From assembly GCA_040756905.1 (NCBI GenBank), contig JBFLYD010000038.1, positions 1 through 47,743 of the forward strand: a stretch of DNA of 47,743 nt, written 5' to 3'. The DNA is from Acidobacteriota bacterium (GTDB lineage Bacteria; Acidobacteriota; Aminicenantia; JBFLYD01). The notes beneath the pieces were generated by a model. The model did no database searches. It was not told the DNA's origin and was given only the letters and a program-made list of their open reading frames with translations. Shown here piece by piece: positions 16,740 to 47,743 of the stretch (position 1 is its first letter; the number at the start of each line of letters is the position of its first letter). The position numbers and the translations under genes are program-made.

Positions 16740-17837
16740 TCAGAAAATCTGATATTTCCTCATTCTTATATTTATGATTAAAGCGATTATTATGAAAGTC
16801 GAAAGAAGAGATGACCCTCCATAACTCAGAAGAGGAAGGGGGATTCCAACAATAGGAAATAATCCTATCAGCATTGAACAATTTATAAAAAATTGAAAAA
16901 TAATTATCGATGAAAGGGAAAAAGATAATAAAATTCCAGCTTTAGCCTTTGGTTCAAGGGATATCTTAAGAAACCTTAAAATAAACCAAAGATAAAGAGA
17001 AAATATAATTAATATTCCAAAAAATCCGAATTCTTCTGCAAGGACTGAAAGAATAAAATCTGTATGTTGAGCTGGAAGAAATTTAGATTGAGTCTGTGTT
17101 CCTTTTAAATACCCTTTCCCAAAAAATCCACTGGAGCCAATGGCTATTTTGGATTGGAGCAGATGATATCCCTCAGCCTTTGGATTGCTCTGGGGATAAA
17201 TAAATGTTTTTATTCTTGCTTTTTGATAATCTTTTAAAACAAATTCCCACATAAACACTCCCGAAAGAAGAATGATTATTATTAACAAAAACACAAGTTT
17301 TGCCTTTATTCCTTTAAGAAAAAATAAAGATATGAATCCTGGAAAAAATGTGAGAGCTGTTCCAAAATCTGGCTGCAACACTACAAATGAAACTGGTACT
17401 CCAATGATAATCCCAGCATAAAATAACTCTTTCAACCCAATCTTTTCTCCTACCTTATCCACAAAATATTTTGTCAATAAAATCACCGCAGCAATTTTTG
17501 CAAATTCTGCTGGTTGAACCTGAAATTGACCAAAATCGATCCAGCTTTTTGCTCCTGCAATTTTTTTCCCTTTTATTAATAGATACATCAGAGGGATAAT
17601 TGAAAATACATAAACAGGAAATGACCATTCAATTATCTTTTTGTAGTTTATCATGATTAAGACCAAAAAAATCACTAAACCCCCTAAAAACCATAGCATC
17701 TGCTTTATCAAGAATATTCTGGAAGTCTGATATGTACAGCTATAAATCATAGCCATACCTATCAGGCTTAAAACAATGGCAATGGAAAGTGTGAAATAAT
17801 CAATATTCTTTATTAATTCTTTGGTGTGCTGTCCCAT
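16740..17837 (-). CDS. rodA: Rod-shape peptidoglycan polymerase RodA (SEDS family)
   Basis: About 365 aa with some ten membrane segments and SEDS hallmarks: LQPDFGTALTFFP, KGTQTQSKFLPAQHTDFILS, VLAEEFGFFG and GIPLPLLSYGGSSLL near the C-terminus. With PBP2 it polymerises glycan strands along the cell side wall. I prefer the ATG at 17837 (MGQHTKELIKN) because GGAG at 17844-17847 sits 6 nt upstream; an upstream in-frame ATG at 17849 would add MEIF. This whole start region lies inside a degenerate copy of repeat R1, so the repeat seems to provide the ribosome site and start codon. It is preceded by mrdA and followed by the radical SAM gene. Confidence 0.95.
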   Translation of the reverse strand: MGQHTKELIKNIDYFTLSIAIVLSLIGMAMIYSCTYQTSRIFLIKQMLWFLGGLVIFLVLIMINYKKIIEWSFPVYVFSIIPLMYLLIKGKKIAGAKSWIDFGQFQVQPAEFAKIAAVILLTKYFVDKVGEKIGLKELFYAGIIIGVPVSFVVLQPDFGTALTFFPGFISLFFLKGIKAKLVFLLIIIILLSGVFMWEFVLKDYQKARIKTFIYPQSNPKAEGYHLLQSKIAIGSSGFFGKGYLKGTQTQSKFLPAQHTDFILSVLAEEFGFFGILIIFSLYLWFILRFLKISLEPKAKAGILLSFSLSSIIIFQFFINCSMLIGLFPIVGIPLPLLSYGGSSLLSTFIIIALIINIRMRKYQIF

Positions 17838-17876
17838 AAATATCTCCATAAATAATCGTTTTCTTTAGTGTGCATT
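17824..17876. repeat. Repeat R1, degenerate copy spanning mrdA end and rodA start
   Basis: It shares GTGTGCTGTCCCATAAATAT and the TAAATA core with the R1 copies at 20973, 21158 and 27755; the second arm (GTGTGCATTTC side) is decayed. Read on the minus strand it contains the last codons and stop of mrdA (GCACACTAA) and the Shine-Dalgarno plus ATG of rodA. Confidence 0.8.
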
Positions 17877-19679
17877 TCTTTTTGCCCCATTAAAATAAAA
17901 ATTCAGAATCTTTCCTGCAATCGGAGCTGCATTTTCTCCTCCCTTCCCAGCATGCTCTATTATTATTGCAATTGCAACTTCAGGATTATCTTTCGAAGCA
18001 AATCCTGTAAACCAGGAATGGGGAGTAATTCCTGTAGTAAATTCATTTTTATCCTTGATTATTTTTGAAACCACCTGGGTTGTTCCTGTCTTTCCACAAA
18101 CATCAAATCCAGAAAGCCTTGCTCTTGCTCCTGTACCAGAATCGTTTACTGAACCCCACATCCCATCTATTATGTATTCAAAATATTCTTTATCTATATC
18201 TATCTCCTTTGGGTTCTGTTCAAAATAAAACTTTTGAAATTTATTATTCTCATAATATCCTCTTGCAACATGAGGAACTATTTTTTTCCCCCTGTTCGCT
18301 ATTGCTGATACAAAATTTACTATTTGGATCGGCGTCGTAAGAATATATCCCTGACCGATGGAAATAGAAATTGTCTCTCCTGAATACCAGGGTTCTTCAA
18401 GATACTTCATTTTCCAGGAAGGGTCTGGAACCAATCCTGCCCTTTCGCCGGAAATATCAATTCCTGTGTATTCTCCAAGTCCAAATTTTTTTGCATATTT
18501 CTTGATTTTCTCAATACCCAATCTTTTTCCAGTTTTATAAAAATAAACATTACAGGAATGCTTTATTGCTTCATAGAGATTTAAACTCCCATGTCCCAAT
18601 TCCTTCCAGCAGCGAAAAACTTTGTTTCCAGATTGATAAGAGCCAGAACAGGATATCCTCTCATCAGGATTTATTACTTTTTCTTGAAGTCCTGCCAGAG
18701 CTATAAGCAACTTAAAGATTGAACCAGGAGAATATTGTCCCTGAATTACTCTATTATAAAAAGGATAGTTCTCATCGGAGATGAAATTTCTCCAATCGGC
18801 CTCTGAAAATTCTGAAACAAATAAATTAGGATTAAAACCAGGAGAAGAAGCCATTGCAAGGATTTCCCCATTTTTAGGATTAATTAAAACTATCCCGCCC
18901 TTTCTATTCTCTAAATACTTTTCCACTTCATTCTGTAGGTCTATGTCAATCGTAAGAACCAGATCATTCCCTTTTTCAGGCTCCTTTCTTTCCAGTTCTT
19001 CAATAATTTTTCCTTTTATATCAACAGCATAATCAACCCATCCATCTTTACCTCTTAAAATCTTATCATACTGTTTTTCTAACCCCATTTTTCCTGTAAA
19101 TGAGCCTGCTTTAATGTCTTTTGTTTTTGATATTTCCTCCGGGAATGCCTCTCCAATATATCCAAAGATATGAAAAGCAAGGGAGTTAAAAGGATAATTT
19201 CGAACCGGTTCTATTTGAAATTCTAATGGAAAAAATTCATCTTTTCTTGCTTCCAAAAAGCTCACCTTTTCAATTGGAATGTCTTTCTTTAAAACAAGCG
19301 GTAAATAATAAGGAGTCTTTCTTGAATTTAATATTCTATCAATAAAACTTTTTTTCCTGACTTCAAGAATGTTGGAAAGATTATCAATGTAATTGAATAA
19401 TTCTGACATTCTATCTCTATCGATTGTTAAATTAAAAGAGGGTCTATTATCCACGATAACTCTTCCATTCCTATCATAAATAAAGCCTCTTGAAGCCAGG
19501 ATATCCACCCTTCTTATTCTATTTATCTCCGCCAATTTCAGATAATTTTTATGGTCTACAATCTGAATCTTCCAGTAAAATATCAAAACAAACAATAAGG
19601 CAATGGAAACTATGTATTTTACAATGTTTATTCTCTTGAGCAAAGATGTCAAGTCTTCAGAATAATTTATTTTTTCCAT
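17865..19679 (-). CDS. mrdA: Penicillin-binding protein 2, elongasome transpeptidase
   Basis: A 604-aa class B penicillin-binding protein. One N-terminal membrane anchor spans about residues 20-38 and a dimerisation domain follows (RVDILASRGFIYDRNGRVI). The transpeptidase domain has the SxxK motif SIFK at 320-323, SCN at 375-377 and KTGT at 530-533, all intact. It crosslinks side-wall peptidoglycan with RodA and the MreBCD scaffold. The start overlaps the end of mreD by 13 nt. Its last residues (NAH) and stop are encoded by the arm of repeat R1, so the original C-terminus may have been trimmed or replaced there. Confidence 0.95.
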   Translation of the reverse strand: MEKINYSEDLTSLLKRINIVKYIVSIALLFVLIFYWKIQIVDHKNYLKLAEINRIRRVDILASRGFIYDRNGRVIVDNRPSFNLTIDRDRMSELFNYIDNLSNILEVRKKSFIDRILNSRKTPYYLPLVLKKDIPIEKVSFLEARKDEFFPLEFQIEPVRNYPFNSLAFHIFGYIGEAFPEEISKTKDIKAGSFTGKMGLEKQYDKILRGKDGWVDYAVDIKGKIIEELERKEPEKGNDLVLTIDIDLQNEVEKYLENRKGGIVLINPKNGEILAMASSPGFNPNLFVSEFSEADWRNFISDENYPFYNRVIQGQYSPGSIFKLLIALAGLQEKVINPDERISCSGSYQSGNKVFRCWKELGHGSLNLYEAIKHSCNVYFYKTGKRLGIEKIKKYAKKFGLGEYTGIDISGERAGLVPDPSWKMKYLEEPWYSGETISISIGQGYILTTPIQIVNFVSAIANRGKKIVPHVARGYYENNKFQKFYFEQNPKEIDIDKEYFEYIIDGMWGSVNDSGTGARARLSGFDVCGKTGTTQVVSKIIKDKNEFTTGITPHSWFTGFASKDNPEVAIAIIIEHAGKGGENAAPIAGKILNFYFNGAKRNAH

Positions 19680-20952: not shown

Positions 20953-20972
20953 TTTTAACTAATCAGGGATTG

Positions 20973-21024
20973 GTGTGCTGTCCATAAATATCTTGGTAAA
21001 TAAAGAATTTCTCCTAAAGCACAC
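20973..21024. repeat. Repeat R1, copy between mreB and mreC
   Basis: A 52-bp unit with terminal inverted arms GTGTGCT and AGCACAC and an AT-rich core containing ATAAATATCTT. A further hairpin follows at 21034-21054 (ATGGGGAAG, loop AGG, CTTCCCCAT), which is also seen in altered form after the R1 copy at 27755. Confidence 0.9.
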
Positions 21025-21065
21025 TGAAGGGGTATGGGGAAGAGGCTTCCCCATGTCTGGGGGGT

Positions 21066-21155
21066 GCTCAGCGAAGCGTCTAAGGAGATCTTTCTCCCAT
21101 AGGGAAAGTGTCATGTCACAATAATATAACGAAAGGTATTTAAGTGACATGACAC
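21066..21155. repeat. Repeat R3 with its conserved leader module
   Basis: The leader module (GCTCAGCGAAGCGTCTAAGG through ATAGGGAAAG, 21066-21107) is followed by a 48-bp palindrome with 12-bp arms GTGTCATGTCAC (21108-21119) and GTGACATGACAC (21144-21155). Near-identical module plus palindrome copies occur at 28187-28274 and, inverted, at 47573-47664. The open frame across this array is an artefact of the repeats. Confidence 0.9.
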
Positions 21156-21157
21156 TA

Positions 21158-21210
21158 GTGTGCTGTCCCATAAATATCTTCGTAAATAGAGAATTTTTCT
21201 TACAGCACAC
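21158..21210. repeat. Repeat R1, second copy between mreB and mreC
   Basis: A 53-bp unit with arms GTGTGCT (21158-21164) and AGCACAC (21204-21210). It ends 4 bp before the mreB stop and starts 2 bp after the R3 palindrome, so the array is R1, hairpin, R3, R1. Transcripts running from mreB to mreC would have to read through it. Confidence 0.9.
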
Positions 21211-21214
21211 TGAA

Positions 21215-22243
21215 TTAATCTAGTGCTATTCTCTTTAAAAATTCAATGTTCTCAAGCATTTTACCGCTTCCGATAACAACAGAAGCTAAAGGGTTATCTG
21301 CTATGAAAACTGGAAGGTGGGTCTCTTCCATTAATCTCTTATCAAGTCCTTTTAGAAGGGAGCCTCCTCCTGTGAGTATTATACCTCTATCTACAATATC
21401 AGCTGATAATTCAGGAGGTGTTTTTTCCAGTGCTATCTTAACAGCTTCAATTATTGCTTCCAGTGTGTCTTCCAGAGCCTCCCTAACCTCTTTATCATTA
21501 ATTACAACTGTCTTTGGAATTCCATCCCTGAGATCTCTTCCCTTTATTTCCATACTCATTTCTTCTTCTAATGGGTAGGCAGAGCCGATTTTAATCTTTA
21601 TCTGCTCAGCTGTCTTTTCTCCTATTAATAAATTGTATTTCTTTTTAACAAACTGAACTATTGCTTCATCCATTTCGTTGCCGGCAATTCTTATGGCTTT
21701 TGAAAATACAATTCCCCCTAAAGATATTACTGCTATATCAGTGGTGCCTCCTCCAATATCAACAATCATGCTTCCTACTGGTTCTGTTATTGGAAGGTCT
21801 GAGCCAATTGCAGCAGCCATAGCCTGATCAACGAGATATACTTCTGAGGCCTTTGCCTTAATAGCCGCATCCTTAACTGCTCTTCTTTCGACTTGAGTTA
21901 TTTCCGAAGGTATTCCAATAACTATTCTCGGTCTTATCCATTGATTTTTATTTCTTGCTTTCCTGATAAAATAATCCAGCATCCTTTCTGTAATCTCAAA
22001 ATCAGCTATAACCCCATCTTTTAAAGGCTTTATAGCTAAAATATTTGCAGGGGTTTTCCCCACCATCTCCTTTGCTTCATTTCCGACTGCCTCGATTTTT
22101 CCGTTATTTTTATTAATCGCTACAATCGATGGTTCATTGACGACGATGCCTTTTCCTTTTAAATATATGAGAGTATTGGCGGTTCCAAGATCAACAGCTA
22201 AATCACATGTTAATTTACTTATTAACCACTCAATGATTCCCAT
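21215..22243 (-). CDS. mreB: Rod shape-determining protein MreB (bacterial actin)
   Basis: A 342-aa actin-fold ATPase. Phosphate-1 loop DLGTANTLIYLKGKGIVVNE (about residues 17-36), phosphate-2 MIVDIGGGTTDIAVISLGG (about 158-176) and the adenosine motif ILTGGGSLLKGLD near the C-terminus are intact. The N-terminal IIEWLISKLTCDLA is amphipathic and should attach the filament to the membrane. It organises side-wall synthesis with mreC, mreD, mrdA and rodA downstream. The ribosome site is weak. 22244-22428 upstream is AT-rich with one short hairpin (ATCTCC/GGAGAT, 22397-22416). Confidence 0.96.
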   Translation of the reverse strand: MGIIEWLISKLTCDLAVDLGTANTLIYLKGKGIVVNEPSIVAINKNNGKIEAVGNEAKEMVGKTPANILAIKPLKDGVIADFEITERMLDYFIRKARNKNQWIRPRIVIGIPSEITQVERRAVKDAAIKAKASEVYLVDQAMAAAIGSDLPITEPVGSMIVDIGGGTTDIAVISLGGIVFSKAIRIAGNEMDEAIVQFVKKKYNLLIGEKTAEQIKIKIGSAYPLEEEMSMEIKGRDLRDGIPKTVVINDKEVREALEDTLEAIIEAVKIALEKTPPELSADIVDRGIILTGGGSLLKGLDKRLMEETHLPVFIADNPLASVVIGSGKMLENIEFLKRIALD

Positions 22244-27654: not shown

Positions 27655-27754
27655 TACAAAGCAATAAATAATTTGTAGGGCAACCCTTCAGGGTTGCTTG
27701 ATGCAAGGCTAAAGCCTTGCCCTACATGTAAAAATATTTTGTGCGTTTGTATTA
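27652..27754. repeat. Repeat R4, compact copy abutting the HD-GYP stop
   Basis: A 103-bp unit with ends TAATACAAA and TTTGTATTA. It contains two internal hairpins, GGGCAACCCTTCAGGGTTGC and GCAAGGCTAAAGCCTTGC. Its first three bases are the stop codon of the HD-GYP gene, and its last base is directly followed by R1. Confidence 0.9.
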
Positions 27755-27807
27755 GTGTGCTGTCTCATAAATATCTTTATAAATAAACAATTTCTCATAA
27801 AGCACAC
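27755..27807. repeat. Repeat R1, copy following R4
   Basis: A 53-bp unit with arms GTGTGCT (27755-27761) and AGCACAC (27801-27807), very close to the two copies in the mreB-mreC gap. A 7-bp hairpin follows at 27819-27836 (AGGGAAG, loop GCTT, CTTCCCT). Confidence 0.9.
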
Positions 27808-27842
27808 TGAAGGGTTATAGGGAAGGCTTCTTCCCTGAACAT

Positions 27843-28106: not shown

Positions 28107-28114
28107 TAGTACTT

Positions 28115-28274
28115 GGAGCCTTTCGGATAAAAGAGAAGTGATTAATTCTCCTGATATTTCAGTTCTCCGAAAGGCTCCCATGTGCTGCTCAGCGAAGCGT
28201 CTAAGGAGATCTTTCTCCCATAGGGAAAGGGTTGTGTCACAGAAGAGCAACAAAAGGTAATTAAGTGACACAAC
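28115..28274. repeat. Composite repeat R2 + module + R3
   Basis: R2 (28115-28178, 64 bp) has 13-bp arms GGAGCCTTTCGGA and TCCGAAAGGCTCC. Then comes the module with GCTCAGCGAAGCGTCTAAGG (from 28187), then R3 (28231-28274) with arms GTTGTGTCAC and GTGACACAAC. The same composite occurs inverted at 47573-47734. Open frames across 27970-28403 are repeat artefacts. The rest of the gene-free stretch to 28366 holds one GAGCGAAG motif (28303-28325) and nothing else recognised. Confidence 0.9.
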
Positions 28275-28366
28275 ACTGGCATAGATTTTTATGCGAGGAG
28301 ATCTGAGCGAAGAGGATAGTTGACCTATTAATTTATATTGAATAATGAATAATGAAGATCTGACCC

Positions 28367-45879: not shown

Positions 45880-47711
45880 TTTTCCAGTTTCTGAAGCCTT
45901 TCTTTTGCCTGTTGATGCTCTGGGTTCAGTTCCAATGCTTTTTTATATGCCTTGATTGCCTTTTCTATTTGGCCTTTTTCTTCATAGGCTAAGCCCCGTA
46001 AAAAGTAAAGATTTGCAAACCATGGATTAGCTTCCTCTTCTGGATGCATCTTTATGTTAGCACCTGCCATAGATATCACTTCATCGAGTAAAATCTCGCT
46101 CAATTTTTTTAAGATTTTCGCCTGATAGAGCCTGTTCATTTCTAAAGCTCCATGGGCTTCATTCGCTGCTTGATTCCAGCATTTGAATGCCTCAGGAAGG
46201 TTATTCATCTTGCTGTATGCCAGTCCCTTATACCAAAGTATCTCTGCAAAATTGTGTAATGGTTCTTTAGTAATCCGAATGTTTTCCGGATATTCCATCG
46301 CCCTATCAAATTCTGATGTAGCCTCAAGATACTTTCCATCGTCAAAAAGCTTTTTACCTTTTGTCAAATAAATTGTCCTGTGCCAGGACTGAAATTCAAA
46401 GCGATGCCAGTGATCTGCTGGATACTTTGAGATAATCTCTTCCATAAGTTTAAAATTTCCTTTTTCAGAATATAATGGCAATAATTCTCTTACAATTTCG
46501 GATGGTTTAGATACTTTGTCAAGTCCAGATTCAAGAATTGCGATCGCTTTTTCTTTTTGTTTTATTTCTCCGTATAAATCAGAAAGTTCTTTGTAGCACT
46601 GGAAGTGCCATCCTCCATATGATAAAGCTTTCTCATACCATGAAACTGCCTCTTCAGGTTTTTTTTGAATTTTCCAGATAATAAGCCCGATATTCCTGTA
46701 AAGAACAGTCAGTAAATCTGAGTAGCTCATTTTTTCTTCATTTTTAAGATTTTCTATCTTCTGTGCCGATTTATTCCATTGTTCTAAAGCTTCTGAAAAT
46801 CGATAACGGGATGCAAGGAAATTACCCATGGCATAACGGGTAATAAAGTTATCCTCAGAATTTTCTATTGCATCTTTTAATATAGCAAATTCCTCAAGAC
46901 GATTGGGAAATAAATGTTGATAATTTTTGGTTTTCAGAGCATTCCCATAAAATTCTTTGCCTTTCTCTCTTTTGCCAATTTTGTTATAAAGATAGCCAAG
47001 ATAGAACAAAGACATTGGCGATTTCTCTCCATCAATCATTTCCATAAGGGTAATCGCATCCTGGTAAAGTCCACTGTTAATATAAAGACATGCGAGTTCA
47101 AGATAGGATTGTTCTTCATCTCCCCTCACCCCTCCCTCTCCCCTGAGGGGAGAGGATTGAAGCCTGCCCCGTACTTGATGCGGGGGTGAGGGGGAAAACG
47201 GGTAAGATGTAACAAATATTAGTGCGTTTGTATTAATAAGATGCTGCTCGAAAGCTGCAAAGTAGTTTGTAGGTTCATCTTCAAACACACTTTTTATCAT
47301 TTTCTCTGCGTCTATATATTTATGCATTTTTCTGTAAGCGGCTGATAGAAGCACTCTTGTTTCACTGGAGCGTGGATTTCTCTCGAGTGCCTTCTTGAAA
47401 TGTTTAACTGCCTGATGATAATTACCTCTTGCGAGGGAAATTTGACCCAGACAGTGATAAGCTGTTGCAAATGTTTGGGAAAATTTAGTTGCTTTTAGAA
47501 GATAATCTTCTGCTGTCTGGAGGTTTCCAATTATTTTGTTCAACAATCCAAGGTAATAATAAGCATCTCCAAGTGTCGTGTCACTTAAATTACTTTCATT
47601 ATTCTTTTGTGACACAACACTTTCCCTATGGGAGAAAGATCTCCTTAGACGCTTCGCTGAGCAGCTCATAGGAGCCTTTCGGAGAACTGAAATGTCAGGA
47701 GAATTAATCAC
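45876..47711 (-). CDS. TPR-repeat protein with repeat insertions in frame; may continue past the window
   Basis: At least 611 aa with many TPR motifs (for example AYHCLGQISLARGNYHQAVK, LYFLRGLAYEEKGQIEKAIK). The last 40 residues are a clear TPR (KAIKAYKKALELNPEHQQAK). The nominal GTG start (47711) lies inside repeat R2, and the frame stays open to the window edge (AVLGAFRIKEV before it), so the true N-terminus may be outside. Residues 1-46 or so are translated R2 plus R3 sequence. Around residues 160-200 a second insert (SYPFSPSPPHQVRGRLQSSP, LRGEGGVRGDE) is translated R5 and half of R4. No signal peptide is visible. Its stop overlaps the symporter start, so it belongs to the transport operon, likely as a scaffold. 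Confidence 0.8.
   Translation of the reverse strand: MINSPDISVLRKAPMSCSAKRLRRSFSHRESVVSQKNNESNLSDTTLGDAYYYLGLLNKIIGNLQTAEDYLLKATKFSQTFATAYHCLGQISLARGNYHQAVKHFKKALERNPRSSETRVLLSAAYRKMHKYIDAEKMIKSVFEDEPTNYFAAFEQHLINTNALIFVTSYPFSPSPPHQVRGRLQSSPLRGEGGVRGDEEQSYLELACLYINSGLYQDAITLMEMIDGEKSPMSLFYLGYLYNKIGKREKGKEFYGNALKTKNYQHLFPNRLEEFAILKDAIENSEDNFITRYAMGNFLASRYRFSEALEQWNKSAQKIENLKNEEKMSYSDLLTVLYRNIGLIIWKIQKKPEEAVSWYEKALSYGGWHFQCYKELSDLYGEIKQKEKAIAILESGLDKVSKPSEIVRELLPLYSEKGNFKLMEEIISKYPADHWHRFEFQSWHRTIYLTKGKKLFDDGKYLEATSEFDRAMEYPENIRITKEPLHNFAEILWYKGLAYSKMNNLPEAFKCWNQAANEAHGALEMNRLYQAKILKKLSEILLDEVISMAGANIKMHPEEEANPWFANLYFLRGLAYEEKGQIEKAIKAYKKALELNPEHQQAKERLQKLEK
47122..47235. repeat. Repeat R5 joined to a partial R4, inside the TPR gene
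   Basis: R5 spans about 47122-47194 with arms CCCCTCACCCC and GGGGTGAGGGG, an internal CTCTCCCC/GGGGAGAG hairpin and a CGGGGCA-type half. It belongs to a class of palindromic repeats common in bacteria. It is followed at about 47201-47235 by the end of an R4 unit (GTGCGTTTGTATTA). Both are read through in frame by the TPR gene. Confidence 0.85.
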
Positions 47712-47734
47712 CTCTCTTTTATCCGAAAGGCTCC
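47573..47734. repeat. Inverted copy of the R2 + module + R3 composite
   Basis: R3 (47573-47620, arms GTGTCGTGTCAC and GTGACACAACAC), the module (to 47664) and R2 (47671-47734, arms GGAGCCTTTCGGA and TCCGAAAGGCTCC) mirror 28115-28274. The total length of 162 bp is a multiple of three, and the TPR frame passes through it without a stop. Confidence 0.9.
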
Positions 47735-47743
47735 TAGCACTGC

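Follow-up and report, generated by a model that had tools for sequence, protein, structure and literature searches.

A fragment of a palindromic repeat as the apparent source of the rodA translation start in an Acidobacteriota bacterium

In the Acidobacteriota genome GCA_040756905.1, rodA appears, judged from the DNA sequence, to take its ribosome site, start codon and opening codons from a fragment of R1, a palindromic repeat dispersed throughout the genome. The fragment lies between mrdA and rodA on a contig of 47,743 nucleotides (JBFLYD010000038.1), analysed over its whole length and referred to here as the window. It is very likely that the R1 fragment inserted at a compact mrdA-rodA junction, disrupted the ancestral start and became the start of rodA. 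An initial annotation of the window had proposed that the repeat was turned into a translation start and also provided the mrdA stop. The first part is supported, covering ribosome site, start codon and opening codons, given that R1 is specific to this genome, that the junction is compact in 80 of 81 relatives and that RodA has no standard start codon further downstream before residue 32, while the part concerning the mrdA stop is not upheld.

The R1 repeat and its copy at the mrdA-rodA junction

The R1 half-site GTGTGCTGTCYCATAAATATCT was scanned across the 2.56-Mb host genome (G000; 69 contigs) allowing up to three mismatches, with the reversed pattern as the control, and was found at 67 places against 0 for the control. 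R1 itself is palindromic and 66 copies were extracted; its consensus in the sense of rodA is AGTGTGCTTTATGAGAAATTGTTTGTTTGTGAAGATATTTATGGGACAGCACACTA, and intact copies have the inverted arms AGTGTGCTKT...ACAGCACACT. In 141 other genomes of the class the half-site occurs only 0-2 times per genome. R1 is thus specific to its host, which implies that it moved to rodA and disfavours the reverse direction. No R1 was found in viral contigs, and comparison with Rfam returned weak matches only, all of them sub-threshold, among them Clostridiales-2 RNA at window positions 21020-21089 in the spacer hairpin of a composite element (E 0.00018, below the gathering score). In other families of the class there are low-copy sister palindromes with compensating arm changes (AGTGTCCCGTCTC...GAGACGGGACACT), and sister palindromes of the form AGTGTCCCGTCTC...GACGGGACACT followed by a G-rich/C-rich hairpin were seen at L187, L190, L191, L192, L194 and L195 (genomes G078, G015, G117 and G120). 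In five copies of R1 (L001, L004, L011, L019, L096) the terminal TAG serves the adjacent ORF, encoded on the opposite strand, as its stop codon. Three copies in the window are well formed:

20969 to 21038, minus strand: R1 copy between mreB and mreC (nhmmer E=3.6e-19)
21150 to 21215, minus strand: R1 copy directly after mreB (nhmmer E=3.2e-18)
27749 to 27821, minus strand: intergenic R1 copy (nhmmer E=3.2e-21)

In an operon whose genes otherwise overlap, mreB and mreC are kept apart by two R1 copies together with an R2 palindrome (20969-21215). The window also contains a 170-nt inverted repeat (28108-28277 and 47572-47741, 91% complementary) that is partly common to the R2-containing spacer near 21065-21156.

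The minus strand carries mreB, mreC, mreD, mrdA and rodA in that order, each confirmed by Pfam. The FTSW_RODA_SPOVE domain and the adjacent mreB, mreC, mreD and mrdA identify the last gene as encoding RodA, a SEDS glycosyltransferase. The genes and the repeat segments at the junction are as follows:

16740 to 17837, minus strand: rodA from its preferred start (PF01098, E=2.9e-88; mreB-mreC-mreD-mrdA context)
17865 to 19679, minus strand: mrdA, encoding PBP2 (PF00905 and PF03717)
17820 to 17864, minus strand: R1-derived segment with intact right half and no left arm (leave-one-out nhmmer E=4.3e-9, model positions 27-71 of 79)
17824 to 17845, minus strand: exact 22-nt R1 right half-site AGATATTTATGGGACAGCACAC (22/22 match; one of the 67 places in the genome, control 0)

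The leave-one-out profile was built from the 65 other R1 copies, excluding the one at the junction, and was searched against the window, where it also recovers the three well-formed copies. Its match at the junction spans the R1 core and right arm, and the left half is degenerate. Both GTGTGC motifs at the junction have the same orientation, unlike the inverted arms of intact R1, so the left arm is missing here, as it is in very few of the 66 copies. The core reads AAGATATTTATG in the three other window copies and GGAGATATTTATG at the junction, which places GGAG as a Shine-Dalgarno exactly 6 nt ahead of the ATG of rodA, as the initial annotation had described. Its identification of a degenerate R1 unit is likewise borne out by the exact half-site and the profile match. 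An AT-rich junction and a degenerate left half might be taken as signs of chance or constraint at an ordinary junction, but the exact 22-mer, the leave-one-out E value and the zero control matches leave that reading with practically no weight. The junction copy of R1 is real and, on these sequence data, probably functional.

The other R1 arm had been put forward as the source of the mrdA stop, a proposal that is rejected on three grounds: the GTGTGC beside the stop is in the wrong orientation for a left arm, the R1 match does not begin until 17864, one base past the TAA (17867-17865), and the MrdA C-terminus lies at its usual distance past the conserved AAP motif in the class comparison. Taken together, these make the stop best read as native, with no R1 origin:

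17865 to 17867, minus strand: mrdA stop codon TAA, judged native

The start of rodA

From its longest open frame rodA reads ATG GAG ATA TTT ATG GGA CAG CAC ACC AAA GAA TTA ATA AAG. After the second of these ATG codons (17837) the next ATG, GTG or TTG is at residue 32, within the hydrophobic first segment, with none at residues 6-31; the only two before residue 32, ATG 17849 and ATG 17837, are both in R1 DNA, so that the start must lie in R1-derived sequence. The two candidates and the ribosome site are listed below; the anti-Shine-Dalgarno sequence is assumed in all duplex energies, as a search of the assembly for a 16S gene found none.

17835 to 17837, minus strand: most likely rodA start codon, ATG (MGQHTKELIKNIDYF), in R1 DNA, with ATG 17849 as the only other standard start before residue 32
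17847 to 17849, minus strand: alternative in-frame upstream ATG (MEIFMGQHT), R1-derived, the start of the longest ORF (Shine-Dalgarno -0.9 kcal/mol, assumed anti-Shine-Dalgarno)
17844 to 17847, minus strand: Shine-Dalgarno GGAG, 6 nt before the rodA ATG (duplex energy -6.4 kcal/mol, assumed anti-Shine-Dalgarno)

With this assumed anti-Shine-Dalgarno the site at rodA is the strongest among the 45 R1 copies that keep the core ATG, for which the median is -1.0 kcal/mol. The junction copy is also predicted to fold less stably, at -8.0 kcal/mol against a median of -17.7 for the 44 other copies, and codons 2-5 have a predicted unpaired probability of 0.75 compared with 0.28 elsewhere; since the left arm is missing, the usual R1 hairpin would no longer hold the first rodA codons. 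For the ATG alone, predicted openness is no better at the junction (0.32 vs 0.38 in the other copies).

Initiation at the upstream ATG 17849, which would give MEIFMGQHT... and would still place the start within the R1-derived segment that contains both codons, is unlikely: it is in frame and opens the longest ORF, but its Shine-Dalgarno energy is -0.9 kcal/mol compared with -6.4 kcal/mol for ATG 17837 (anti-Shine-Dalgarno assumed), and it would add six residues relative to most relatives where ATG 17837 adds two. Far less probable is a non-canonical RodA start (ATA, ATT) near residues 13-16, downstream of R1, which would reduce R1 to a 5' leader; ATA13 and ATT16 do exist in frame, but starts of the ATA/ATT type are very rare, and the KELIKN segment, which aligns to the RRLLKEID segment of the relatives, would be lost. 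In favour of such a leader, a paper on REPs cautions that N-terminal repeats often stay untranslated, as a downstream start may serve instead (PMC3733652); rodA has no standard downstream start nearby.

The ancestral junction and the arrival of R1

The layout of the junction was compared among 81 genomes in which both mrdA and rodA are readable, the nearest relatives being members of the same class; a contig scan for closer RodA sequences gave distant matches only, at no more than 42% identity. In 80 of the 81 the offset of the mrdA stop from the rodA ATG falls between -5 and +29 nt, commonly at +5, +8 or +29 (13 relatives share +8), and in the remaining one it is -91, whereas in the host genome it is at -30 from ATG 17837. 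The Met of RodA in these relatives aligns with query residue 7 in most and with residue 9 in a second group, as compared with residue 5 here. Relatives lacking the repeat but having the same junction sequence would have refuted the initial annotation; at the level of the class, the junction differs. A trace of the earlier arrangement may be preserved in a pair of direct repeats:

17861 to 17873, minus strand: direct repeat A, GCACACTAAAGAA (12/13 match to repeat B, spacing 44 nt)
17817 to 17829, minus strand: direct repeat B, GCACACCAAAGAA, pairing with repeat A (equal or better repeats in 73/2000 shuffles and 7/434 window tiles)
17873 to 17875, minus strand: putative fossil ATG start of rodA, which overlaps the mrdA stop at offset +8 (44-nt excision yields MHTKELIKNIDYF and puts Met at query residue 7, as in the class)
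17813 to 17875, minus strand: relic short ORF MHTKENDYLWRYLWDSTPKN* translated from the putative fossil start and ending inside rodA

Taken alone, the 13-nt direct repeat is modestly significant, as 3.7% of shuffles and 1.6% of window tiles contain one as good. Removal of one repeat together with the intervening DNA (44 nt) gives ATGCACACTAAAGAATTAATAAAG, translated as MHTKELIKNIDYF, with Met at residue 7 and the stop at offset +8, a restoration that is achieved by only 16 of 2091 (0.8%) arbitrary deletions of 20-60 nt. ATG 17875 has a fair Shine-Dalgarno of -4.7 kcal/mol with the assumed anti-Shine-Dalgarno. As 44 is not a multiple of three, the insertion would have broken the old rodA start, and we infer that the R1 fragment displaced this start and took its place.

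In the favoured account a fragment of mobile, palindromic R1 would have entered a compact junction at which mrdA and rodA overlapped. The ancestral start at ATG 17875 (MHTKELIKNIDYF), with its 11-nt overlap with the mrdA stop, would have been pushed out of frame by the net gain of 44 nt, and the right end of R1, ATGGGACAGCACAC, which is in frame, could then have taken over as start codon and first codons. Where R1 has AA-AGAT the junction has GG-AGAT, which makes a good Shine-Dalgarno, and the missing left arm would have freed the first rodA codons from the usual hairpin. It is from R1 homology, the lack of other standard starts, the junction layout of the class, the Shine-Dalgarno strength and the weaker predicted folding, all read from the sequence, that we infer what the ancestral sequence was, in which order the events took place and that RodA initiates at ATG 17837.

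Two routes of arrival fit, template switching at short matches and transposition with loss of the left arm. Microhomology-mediated template switching that copied part of R1, entering at AGAA and leaving at GCACAC, is given slightly less than an even chance; R1 similarity begins exactly at an AGAAA common to the target and R1, the right border falls within GCACAC, which both also share, and the left arm is lacking, something seen in very few of the 66 copies. Against this, TA is present at both ends of 33 of 43 composite elements, and transposition followed by deletion is equally workable. The end product is the same, and the rivalry therefore concerns the mechanism of arrival only. That R1 instead originated at the rodA start and dispersed from there is highly improbable despite its exact right half at rodA, considering that the left arm of other copies is missing from the one at rodA, that the sister repeats with compensating arms found in other members of the class do not lie at rodA, and that the rodA starts of relatives have a different, compact layout.

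The parent element, other recipient genes and related systems

R1 frequently forms one terminus of a composite, R2-spacer-R1, with a modal length of 186 nt (62 codons). Many copies of the composite keep one frame open, which encodes LVCCPI.IF.NKQFLIKHTEGVWGRGFPMSGGCSAKRLRRSFSHRESVV.QKNNERYLSDTTL; the segment LVCCPI.IF.NKQFLIKHTEGVWGRGFPMSGG... is found in frame inside four proteins, P0004 (two copies), P0005, P0006 and P0007 (short form), and is absent from four homologs of P0006, the L209 protein. The long proteins concerned, in which the composite adds up to about 62 aa, are encoded at:

L207:3213-6299 (two copies), L208:2742-5321, L209:2568-5435 and L210:1497-4124

The other orientation of R1 ends in ...KIFMGQHT. 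AtpF (P0001, PF00430; L074:939-1694, minus strand) reads MKMFTGQHTRLVLVLFIFF... and has the apparently R1-derived start MKMFTGQHT...; from R1 as far as residue 86 its open frame offers no alternative start codon, and the likely AtpF starts of relatives fall at residues of about 58-72 in the host numbering, close to the corresponding position. Judged from its sequence, R1 likely supplies the AtpF start in parallel to rodA. The MltG/YceG reading frame (L021:492-1553, minus strand) begins in or directly after R1 and has candidate TTG starts. SpeE (L013) was rejected as a further recipient, having its own Shine-Dalgarno and ATG after R1. Somewhat tentatively, R1 may be regarded as a mobile repeat that is preadapted for translation and gene starts, often with an open frame on either strand and, close to one of its ends, an ATG in frame (...KIFMGQHT). 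On this view it has replaced native starts at several core genes of a single genome (rodA, atpF, perhaps mltG) besides its in-frame insertions.

By behaviour R1 resembles several known kinds of element, and the comparison is one of likeness, with no membership of a named family claimed. Rickettsia palindromic elements (RPE; Ogata et al. 2002), in the accounts that PMC10969869 and PMC3733652 give of them, are in-frame, protein-coding palindromes of about 150 bp in unrelated genes. They are the closest known kind, the R1 element sharing with them the palindromic structure, similar size, conserved peptide and in-frame position in unrelated proteins. Proteins with an N-terminal RPE-1 are reported to be expressed (PMC3733652). 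At rodA the R1 fragment would do more than extend a protein, supplying Shine-Dalgarno and start codon and apparently displacing the ancestral start, and the host class appears different from Rickettsia. Like the prokaryotic MITEs reviewed in PMC10969869, the composite is short, encodes no transposase and has terminal inverted repeats (AGTGT...ACACT), with the 186-nt modal length and the 66 R1 copies in keeping with such elements. It differs in that no parent transposase was found for R1. The TA at both ends of the 33 composites could mark a target duplication but may belong to the element itself, and longer target-site duplications are not in excess of shuffles. A genome search for an IS630-type transposase (PF13358, DDE_3) gave no match, which leaves R1 outside the IS630-type MITEs on this point. 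REP/BIME elements are likewise short, palindromic, numerous and often intergenic, sometimes lying in coding regions (PMC3733652). R1 is longer than typical REPs (20-40 bp), and the Y1 transposase (PF01797) was found at four places, none with R1-type arms in the flanks examined, in contrast to RAYT-mobilised REPs; neither these flanks nor the PF13358 search linked a transposase to R1. What is proposed is that R1 works like an RPE or a MITE. Among the papers searched, no direct precedent was met for a MITE as the provider of a start codon.

Protein-coding palindromes are known mainly from Rickettsia, and R1 would be a similar one in an apparently unrelated lineage. The gene concerned, rodA, is a cell-shape gene, and most rod-shaped bacteria cannot do without it. 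Here R1 would be more than a tolerated insert, being apparently the sole source of the start signals, and beside it a putative fossil of the displaced start can still be read. As such, rodA may offer a concrete and testable case of repeat DNA recruited as the translation start and beginning of a normally essential gene.
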